From NCBI GenBank assembly GCA_014762645.1, contig JABURP010000061.1, positions 1 through 64,000 on the forward strand: a stretch of DNA of 64,000 bases, written 5' to 3'. The notes under the pieces are model-generated. The model had not been told where the DNA came from. It saw only the letters and a program-made list of their open reading frames with translations, and did no database searches. The translations under genes were made by a program, and so were the position numbers. Below, piece after piece: positions 36,749-39,783 of the stretch (within the stretch, counting starts at the first letter, position 1; each line of letters begins with the position of its first letter). The stretch is from Crocinitomicaceae bacterium (lineage in GTDB: Bacteria; Bacteroidota; Bacteroidia; Flavobacteriales_D; Crocinitomicaceae).

Positions 36749-37867
36749 ATGAACTTCATCATTTCGAGTTCAGCATTACTGCGAAATATTCAAAACATTG
36801 GCGGGGTACTTAACACCAATAACTCCCTTCCAATTCTTGATAATTTTTTATTTGAACTTTCTAATGGCGAATTGACCATATCAGCTTCTGATTTGGAAAA
36901 CACCATGAAAACAACTGTTCGACCTGATGAAGCAAAGGAAGATGGACGCATAGCCATTCCCGCCAAACTGTTGTTAGATACGCTTAAGAATTTTTCCGAT
37001 CAACCATTAGCATTTGCTATAGATCAGGACAACTACGGGATTGAGATTTCATCTGATTATGGAAAATACAAACTGGTTGGACAGAACCCGGATGATTTCC
37101 CTAAATCACCTGATATTGATGCAACCAATAAATTGAATATCCCAGGAGAAATTGTTGCCAGCGCAATTGATAAGACACTTTTTGCAACAGGAAATGATGA
37201 ACTTCGACCGGTAATGAGCGGAGTGTTTTGTCAGTTTTCATCTGACAAACTGACGTTTGTTGCTACTGATGCACATAAACTTGTGAGATATGATCGTACG
37301 GATGCTTCTGCTCCAAATGCCACAGATTTTATCTTGCCTAAAAAGCCGTTAAACCTGTTGAAGCAGAATTTAACCGGTGAAGAGCAAATCGAAATCAGTT
37401 ATAACGAAACTACAGTTCGATTTAATTTTGGAACCATTGAATTGACCAGTCGTTTGATTGATGGGAAGTACCCCAATTATGAAGCAGTGATCCCAAATGA
37501 AAATCCAAACGTGCTGACAGTAGATCGTATGTCATTTCTGAATTCCATCAAAAGGGTTTCAATCTTCTCAAATAAAACGACTCATCAGGTGAAGTTAAAA
37601 GTCGCAGGAAGTGAACTTTCTATTTCTGCAGAGGATTTAGACTTTTCGAATGAAGCTAAAGAAAGACTTACCTGCAGCTATTCAGGAGATGATATGGAGA
37701 TCGGTTTCAATTCCAAATTTCTATTAGAAATGCTGAATCACATTAGCACGCAAGAAGTAATATTGGAAATGTCAGAACCTAACAAAGCTGGTATTTTGTT
37801 ACCAAGTAGCAATGAAAACGAAAATGAGGATATTCTGATGCTTGTGATGCCGGTAATGATCCGATAA
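36749..37867 (+). CDS. dnaN: DNA polymerase III sliding clamp, beta subunit
   Basis: This 372-residue protein is the normal length for the three-domain clamp. Recognisable segments are NSLPILDNFLFEL, SASDLENTM, RPVMSGVFCQF, FVATDAHKLVRYD, RLIDGKYPNYEAVIP and the conserved C-terminal LMLVMPVMIR. It is not next to dnaA or recF here, which is usual for Bacteroidota. Confidence 0.97.
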   Translation: MNFIISSSALLRNIQNIGGVLNTNNSLPILDNFLFELSNGELTISASDLENTMKTTVRPDEAKEDGRIAIPAKLLLDTLKNFSDQPLAFAIDQDNYGIEISSDYGKYKLVGQNPDDFPKSPDIDATNKLNIPGEIVASAIDKTLFATGNDELRPVMSGVFCQFSSDKLTFVATDAHKLVRYDRTDASAPNATDFILPKKPLNLLKQNLTGEEQIEISYNETTVRFNFGTIELTSRLIDGKYPNYEAVIPNENPNVLTVDRMSFLNSIKRVSIFSNKTTHQVKLKVAGSELSISAEDLDFSNEAKERLTCSYSGDDMEIGFNSKFLLEMLNHISTQEVILEMSEPNKAGILLPSSNENENEDILMLVMPVMIR

Positions 37868-37955
37868 TTTCATTGATTCGAACATAATACATCAGGAAAT
37901 CAACCGTTCAAGAACTTCTAGGAACGATTTTTGCTCTGAATTGGCAAATCCACGT

Positions 37956-38894
37956 ATGAAACGAACGATCGCACTATCCTTATTTCTGGGAGGAATTCTT
38001 TCCTCGTGTTTCTTTGTCAATGACATTTTTGAACCACCTCCTGAAAATGAAGAGACCCTTCAACAGAAATCCGAAAAAGCAGTTTCAGCTTATATTCGAA
38101 AAACGACGCACAATGAGATCTACGAACCTTATGGATTTGGCAGCATAACCATTCGTAAACCGATAGAAATTGTTGAATTGGAAAAATTGCAAAAGAAACA
38201 AAAGTCAGAACCATCTGTAGAATTGGACTCAGCGATCGCACAAAAAAAACGCTTTATAAAGCAAAATAATATTGAACGAACCCTTGACCTCGACCACTTT
38301 TTCACCTTGAAGGATACAACAGGAATCCTCAAAATCTTTGAAACTACTTTCATTCTGAATGACACACTTGGAGTTAAAGACCTTTCCGCAAAAATTATAC
38401 TCTATTTACCTGAAAAATATGAGGATGCACTCACGTACTATTTCTATGAGTACAATATTTTCAATACGCCGTCTTACTATGAATCAAGAAATTTATCTAA
38501 TAATTTCTATGCCTTTTTCAAAGAGGAATTAGAAAAGAGAAAAGGTCGTGACGCAAAATCGGCATTCCTTTTGCATGTGATAAAAATGACTCAGGCAGTA
38601 AAAGACCGTGGTGAGTTCAAGCAACAAGAAATTTTAGAAGAAAATGTAAAGGAATTTATTTCTACTCAAAGAACTGATATTAAGGATTATGAAGAATTGC
38701 AATTCTCAAATCTATATCAAACTCAACAAGATGATACGGCAGAAGTAAACGGCTACTATTTTTTTCATAAATTTATTGGAACCTTTCAGGGAGAGCTTGA
38801 CACCAATGTTGTACTGGTAGAGTTCAATAAATTTTACGAAATAGATAACATTTACCAGATGGATCGACCATTTGGAGCTTACTTTAACGAATAA
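37956..38894 (+). CDS. Lipoprotein of unknown function
   Basis: This encodes 312 residues. The ATG at 37956 starts a lipoprotein signal (MKRTIALSLFLGGILSSC). The mature chain is helical and charged, with no family I recognise. Notable segments are EPYGFGSITIRKP and RTLDLDHFFTLKD, and a C-terminal beta-rich part (GYYFFHKFIGTFQG). It is 6 bp upstream of the 38901 gene and so cotranscribed with it. Confidence 0.75.
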   Translation: MKRTIALSLFLGGILSSCFFVNDIFEPPPENEETLQQKSEKAVSAYIRKTTHNEIYEPYGFGSITIRKPIEIVELEKLQKKQKSEPSVELDSAIAQKKRFIKQNNIERTLDLDHFFTLKDTTGILKIFETTFILNDTLGVKDLSAKIILYLPEKYEDALTYYFYEYNIFNTPSYYESRNLSNNFYAFFKEELEKRKGRDAKSAFLLHVIKMTQAVKDRGEFKQQEILEENVKEFISTQRTDIKDYEELQFSNLYQTQQDDTAEVNGYYFFHKFIGTFQGELDTNVVLVEFNKFYEIDNIYQMDRPFGAYFNE

Positions 38895-38900
38895 GGAAAT

Positions 38901-39458
38901 ATGAAACTGTTTTTTTACCTGTTAACCCTTGGAACTCTTACCGCAAATACCGCATTCTCTCAAAATTTTGAAATTGATTCTTCTGAGGATGAAGAAAAAA
39001 CAAAAGAAGCCGTCTTGGCATGGGCCGATTCTGTTTTCTATATGCACAAAGAATGGAAGTTTGAAAATTTCCGCCCTTTTTACACCGAAGAATATGAAAT
39101 AGCTTTTTTGAGAGCAAATGCGTATAAGGATCGTGTTGAGGATTTGGAGAAAGAAAAAGAAAGCGGAAGATATAAAGGCTCTGATGAAGAATACGAAAAA
39201 GAGCATAAAGAGCTCCAGGAAGCTTACCTAAAGATCAAAGAAGAGTTGGAGAATATTCAAATCAGAGTAACTCATTTTCAAATACATTTTTGGTCTAATA
39301 TTCAAACCACAGACGGTATCACAGTTTATTACGAGCACATTGTTAAATTAGATCACAACTTTAATGTCACAGAAGCTGTCATCAATTCAGCTATTGGAAA
39401 GAAAAATGAGAAAACAGAGATTCTCTATAAGAAGGATGTTAAAGAAAAAAAAAAGTAG
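38901..39458 (+). CDS. Secreted charged coiled-coil protein ending at a slippery A10 tract
   Basis: This encodes 185 residues in frame 0. The signal peptide is MKLFFYLLTLGTLTANTAFS. A helical domain follows (WADSVFYMHKEWKFENFRPFY, then a long Lys/Glu coiled coil at about 80-125), then a beta-rich part. The frame ends as GAA AAA AAA AAG TAG, so the dnaX-type slippery heptamer A AAA AAG sits directly before the stop. An open 69-codon tail continues in the -1 frame. No family is recognised. Either both forms are made, or a homopolymer error or mutation has split the gene. Confidence 0.75.
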   Translation: MKLFFYLLTLGTLTANTAFSQNFEIDSSEDEEKTKEAVLAWADSVFYMHKEWKFENFRPFYTEEYEIAFLRANAYKDRVEDLEKEKESGRYKGSDEEYEKEHKELQEAYLKIKEELENIQIRVTHFQIHFWSNIQTTDGITVYYEHIVKLDHNFNVTEAVINSAIGKKNEKTEILYKKDVKEKKK

Positions 39459-39664
39459 ACAGCTCGAATAGCAGTGAAAACTCATCTGAAAAAGGAGGGA
39501 GTGCCACACTAATTATCAATAGTGATAGTGAGCAATCCGATCAAAAATCCTCTGAAGAAAATAACGAAGAAATCAAAGAAACTCCCAAGGAGCGAAAAAA
39601 GCGATTAAAAAAGGAGGCGAAGGAACTGAAAAAGCAGAAGAAAAGGGAGAAAAACTCTCAATAA
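39455..39664 (+). CDS. -1 frame extension of the 38901 gene (69 codons), reachable by slippage
   Basis: After slippage at 39449-39455 translation would continue as VDSSNSSENSSEKGG and end in a Lys/Arg-rich helix (KERKKRLKKEAKELKKQKK) before TAA at 39662-39664. Composition and charge match the coiled-coil part of the same protein. The segment has no start codon or leader of its own, so it is best explained as the tail of the 38901 product. Confidence 0.6.
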   Translation, partial: VDSSNSSENSSEKGGSATLIINSDSEQSDQKSSEENNEEIKETPKERKKRLKKEAKELKKQKKREKNSQ

Positions 39665-39737: not shown

Positions 39738-39783
39738 AAAAGCCCGAATCCTGGCCATTTGGCTATAATAGACTCGGGCTTTT
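39738..39783. terminator. Bidirectional hairpin terminator
   Basis: AAAAGCCCGA (39738-39747) pairs with TCGGGCTTTT (39774-39783), with an inner small hairpin GCCA/TGGC in the 26-nt loop. It serves the convergent 38901 and porP-like genes. The interval 39665-39801 holds nothing else. Confidence 0.75.

Follow-up and report, generated by a model that had tools for sequence, protein, structure and literature searches.

A conserved adenine run by which one gene of Crocinitomicaceae probably encodes two exported proteins

Introduction

In a bacterium of the family Crocinitomicaceae, an open reading frame with a signal-peptide-like start ends at a stop codon directly behind a run of ten adenines and the −1 frame continues beyond this stop, which raises the question of whether the gene gives rise to one protein or to two. 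The locus resides on contig JABURP010000061.1 of assembly GCA_014762645.1, of which we have analysed the first 64,000 nucleotides, a stretch that will be termed the window. An earlier note, made from the letters of this stretch, had proposed a programmed −1 frameshift at this position, with slippage of RNA polymerase as an equivalent route and an assembly error of one base (A11 instead of A10) as the plain alternative.

Results

The frame-0 open reading frame (38,901–39,458, plus strand; ATG…GTT AAA GAA AAA AAA AAG TAG) codes for a protein of 185 residues, the putative short product, which starts with a signal-peptide-like N-terminus (MKLFFYLLTLGTLTANTAFSQ). Its final codons contain the run of ten A (39,445–39,454, plus strand), the proposed slippage site at the junction between body and tail, and the frame-0 stop TAG is found directly on the 3' side of the slippery stretch (39,456–39,458). 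The heptamer A_AAA_AAG (39,449–39,455), a motif known from E. coli dnaX, is placed in frame-0 phase. The tail opens in the −1 frame of the same strand at G39455 and extends over 69 codons (39,455–39,661) to a TAA at 39,662–39,664. In these particulars, which concern the end of frame 0 on ten A, the correct phase of the dnaX-type heptamer and the length of the open −1 frame, the description in the earlier note is exact. Further downstream, an inverted repeat (AGCCCGA…TCGGGCT followed by TTTT; 39,741–39,780) was read by eye and is not listed by the hairpin scanner, for which its loop is too long. It constitutes a probable shared terminator past the −1 stop, which would therefore place the tail inside the transcript. 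In the related genome G001, a hairpin (AAGCGGGTCAATGACCCGCTTTTTTT) begins a few bases past the −1 stop. A search of Rfam returned no match.

Judged by inspection, the N-terminus of the body looks like a signal peptide, suggesting that the protein is exported. No family model in Pfam or NCBIfam matches the body. Its AlphaFold2 model, built from 19 homologues, displays a confident α+β domain (mean pLDDT 90) with a helix (residues 28–45), a strand (49–61) and a long helical hairpin (63–118) that is followed by three strands. In our own reading, the predicted domain resembles a helix-on-sheet fold (NTF2/cystatin-like) with an inserted hairpin. A Foldseek search with this model found no match at E ≤ 0.001 and VIA-align gave Z-scores of up to 9, mostly against helical hairpins, with neither of the fold searches revealing a clear relative of the body. 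The gene is the third in a cluster, preceded by dnaN (36,749–37,867, plus strand) and by a gene for a lipoprotein-like protein of about 317 residues (37,941–38,894, plus strand), which has no family in Pfam or NCBIfam and no homology to the body that is detectable in a profile comparison, and which is thus not a detectable paralogue. This three-gene order is kept in the related genera examined and we therefore regard the copies of the gene as orthologues. Relatives found in genome contigs originate from metagenome assemblies of Crocinitomicaceae or of other Flavobacteriales and Bacteroidota; viral contigs and a first scan of genome contigs contained none.

We have compared the gene in four species of the genus, each represented by one assembly, with G001 consisting of a single contig of 4.37 Mb. 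It is present in all four, with bodies that are 61–65% identical to that of the window. In each case, a run of nine or ten A (A10 in the window, A9 in G001, G002 and G003) is followed by a G occupying the third base of a frame-0 codon, and the frame-0 stop is located 0–4 codons past the run, in three of the four species directly after the site. The −1 frame continues without a stop for 69, 66, 58 and 58 codons, an extension whose probability of arising by chance is 0.02–0.06 per congener under an order-1 Markov model matched to its own composition, and the remaining two frames of the tail DNA contain 3–9 stops each. Across the four whole genomes we counted only five copies of AAAAAAAAAGTAR, three of them at the orthologous junction, where the fourth species contains A9G followed by TCC instead. 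Runs of A9G are rare (20–41 per genome), and among 30 inspected loci no other one connects a long open reading frame with a long extension in the −1 frame. Within this sample, the arrangement appears specific to this gene. Elsewhere in the genome of the window, a 232-codon ATPase-like open reading frame (L078, G000:C122:9700–11100) ends in GTA AAA AAA AAG TAG, with its run at C122:10400–10412 on the minus strand and a −1 frame that shuts after about ten codons, which probably reflects chance or a minor slippage product.

The tails are composed of a linker that varies and a C-terminal block that is common to the congeners. In the window, an acidic linker rich in Ser, Asn and Glu precedes a basic C-terminal block (ETPKERKKRLKKEAKELKKQKKREKN). 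The best shared block of 22 codons, searched for in each frame of the tails, scores 391 when they are read in the −1 frame. The remaining two frames reach 149 and 88, and 300 Markov nulls score 78 ± 39, with none of them attaining 391. Changes within the block are distributed as 15, 12 and 31 on the first, second and third codon positions of the −1 frame, equivalent to a third-position excess of 17.5, compared to 2.3 ± 3.3 in nulls treated alike, which correct for the protein-guided alignment. Aligning the tail DNA without regard to frame gave no information, as the linkers fail to align. Since both the block score and the third-position excess exceed the nulls, the tail is very probably translated in the −1 frame and under purifying selection there. 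We also considered whether the tail could be translated on its own, and reject this: its DNA contains no ATG or TTG codon in any species and a single interior GTG in G001 only, with none in the window. Without ATG or TTG, the tail must therefore be reached from the frame-0 body by slippage. The shadow of an antisense gene was equally considered as origin of the open −1 frame, but no antisense open reading frame of at least 50 residues covers the tail of the window. No other gene with the same tail was found in this genome.

Since four independent assemblies, including one that consists of a single contig, show the same arrangement, we reject an A11 assembly error in the window. This recurrence also argues against the broader view that the 185-residue protein is the sole product, with the tail being a remnant in decay or the frameshift an artefact of assembly or sequencing. 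The many homologues outside the lineage that presumably work without a tail would be in line with such a view; however, all four congeners, at high divergence, retain an open −1 frame that carries the signature of purifying selection, which renders this view exceedingly improbable.

The earlier note had described the tail as charged and Lys-rich; in the species of the window, its basic charge is concentrated in the last 26 residues or so (+10) and the linker is acidic (−8). A neutral or acidic part followed by a basic one (+6 to +11) is found in all five tail-bearing species, and the basic end could tether the exported protein to an anionic surface.

The fifth of these species, G022, belongs to another genus of the same family and is represented by one metagenome assembly. 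Here, body and tail are fused in a single frame of 238 codons. The alignment of homologues suggested in the earlier note thus finds the tail conserved in the −1 frame in four out of four congeners and fused in frame in a further species, and the opposite outcome, homologues that all stop in frame 0 with no conservation of the tail, is not observed within the genus. The tail of G022 combines a Ser/Thr-rich linker with a Lys-rich end and is predicted to be disordered (pLDDT about 30). Its junction reads GAT AAA AAA AAA GCA GAT AGT, with A9 in the tail-fusing phase and outside of the A_AAA_AAG phase. Addition of one A (A10) would lead to KKKSR-stop and removal of one (A8) to a stop roughly twelve codons further downstream. 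Neither the gene tree nor a tree of dnaN and dnaK settles the placement of G022 as sister to the genus. Just 5' of its A9 run, G022 contains the sequence AGGGAG (L005/L031), which resembles a Shine–Dalgarno-like frameshift stimulator, although ribosomes of this lineage reportedly do not read such sequences.

Among the homologues, a junction run of at least nine A is present in 5/5 tail-bearing and 0/23 tail-less proteins (Fisher P = 1e-5, with related species not being independent). The −1 extensions of tail-less homologues are short (2–34 codons), except for L022 (G093), where an open −1 frame of 99 codons merely mirrors an antisense gene, which calls for caution in frameshift screens. Outside of the lineage, homologues end without a tail, which is thus lineage-specific.

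The long homopolymer and the occurrence of both phases among species, four encoding the short and one the fused form, would be in line with phase variation, where replication slippage in the DNA would toggle the tail between cells and each assembly would sample one state. However, all four congeners are found in the same phase despite differences in their 5' sequence and run length (A9 or A10), and the alternative state is not seen within the genus among one assembly per species. We thus regard phase variation as quite improbable.

If instead the product is altered during expression, slippage could occur on the ribosome or on RNA polymerase. If ribosomal frameshifting of the programmed −1 type on A_AAA_AAG were the sole or main mechanism, the additional adenines of the run would be incidental. 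Such a mechanism would be consistent with the in-phase heptamer preceding the frame-0 stop in all four congeners, the immediate proximity of this stop in three of them and the retention of AAA AAA AAG throughout, although lysine codons in the genes of the window are distributed as 133 AAA to 70 AAG. It would also agree with a UUU anticodon in the only lysine tRNA identified by ARAGORN (2 of the 35 tRNA-like hits were left unclassified), since in E. coli the slipperiness of AAG depends on tRNA-Lys UUU being the sole lysine tRNA (PMC5009743), and A_AAA_AAG is among the most slippery sites there. However, the downstream region folds no better than shuffled sequences (z of −0.8 to −1.7 in the two species folded), and purine-rich Shine–Dalgarno-like stretches upstream are irregular. 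Because the ribosomes of Bacteroidia fail to recognise Shine–Dalgarno sequences (PMC9976891), a stimulation of the dnaX type by such elements is unlikely. Moreover, the fused relative G022 keeps A9 in another phase, so that the constant feature is the run of at least nine A and not the phase of the heptamer. For this reason, we favour transcriptional slippage over a purely E. coli dnaX-like ribosomal shift, which we consider unlikely as sole or main mechanism. The interpretation in the earlier note is supported, with the correction that the conserved element is probably the length of the run rather than the heptamer.

Transcriptional slippage is in line with the properties of known systems. 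Bacterial RNA polymerases slip efficiently on nine A, as exploited by T. thermophilus dnaX (PMC1088944, PMC5009743), and two-ORF dnaX genes with A10 have been ascribed to the same mechanism (PMC3711429). Of the insertions made during transcription, 80% are single-base and most occur within homopolymeric runs (PMC5574713); the tail would be opened by precisely such an insertion of one A. Against the transcriptional level stands the constancy of the A_AAA_AAG phase and of the direction of the shift in all four congeners, as a constant −1 direction points to ribosomal shifting by the criterion of PMC3711429; the counterweight is solely the phase switch in G022, observed in one metagenome assembly. 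On balance, we lean slightly towards transcriptional slippage as the main level with a possible ribosomal contribution, and both may act together. The slippage of RNA polymerase that the earlier note had offered as an equivalent route has thereby become the better-supported mechanism.

Discussion

Our analysis suggests, with a probability of roughly 0.6, that one gene encodes two exported proteins by slippage on a conserved run of A. Both proteins would share a precursor of about 185 residues and differ by a tail of about 58–69 residues with a strongly basic end, and slippage on the conserved junction run of at least nine A would act as the switch between them. In the genus, the template would be read to the stop right past the run to give the short product, and the long product would arise when RNA polymerase inserts one A into the mRNA (A10 to A11) and/or when the ribosome shifts by −1 on A_AAA_AAG. 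In G022, the template would be read through into the tail, with the short product arising once an A is gained or lost, and both lineages would be expected to make both proteins. More tentatively, the poly-A tract may have been selected as a two-way recoding switch, with the genus encoding the short form and slipping to the long one and the genus of G022 encoding the long form and slipping to the short one, in which case the dual output, rather than either frame, would have been preserved by evolution.

The proposed arrangement shares features with established cases of recoding. In Thermus thermophilus dnaX, tau and gamma are generated by transcriptional slippage on A9. As in this gene and in the A10 two-ORF dnaX genes of Antonov et al. 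2013 (PMC3711429), a shared N-terminal body is separated from a C-terminal extension by a run of A9–A10, two products would be made, and both fused and split templates are found among relatives. Unlike these systems, the gene described here belongs to an unrelated exported family with a short tail (predicted to be disordered in G022) and no role in replication, and the occurrence of slippage, its level and its efficiency are here inferred from sequence. With E. coli dnaX, the gene shares the heptamer and its phase (in the four congeners) and apparently the presence of tRNA-Lys UUU only. In contrast to E. coli dnaX, where the shift gives the short product, it would here give the long one, and no comparable hairpin or functional Shine–Dalgarno-like stimulator was found. 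Transcriptional slippage has also been described for S. aureus mapW and Shigella spa13 (PMC1088944, PMC5009743), where slippage on an A or T run likewise adds a C-terminal part encoded in another frame. In some strains mapW is an uninterrupted open reading frame, comparable to the fused tail in G022, although mapW and spa13 concern different proteins and lineages.

To our knowledge, documented conserved bacterial recoding genes outside mobile elements are few, and in the full text of open papers we found none reported for Crocinitomicaceae. With the hidden tail conserved across the genus, we regard the locus as a genuine case, hitherto unlisted, of a gene that probably makes two proteins. With the same tract in opposite phase, G022 provides an internal natural control that allows the separation of ribosomal from transcriptional slippage. 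Finally, standard gene calling would truncate a conserved C-terminus in every species of the genus.
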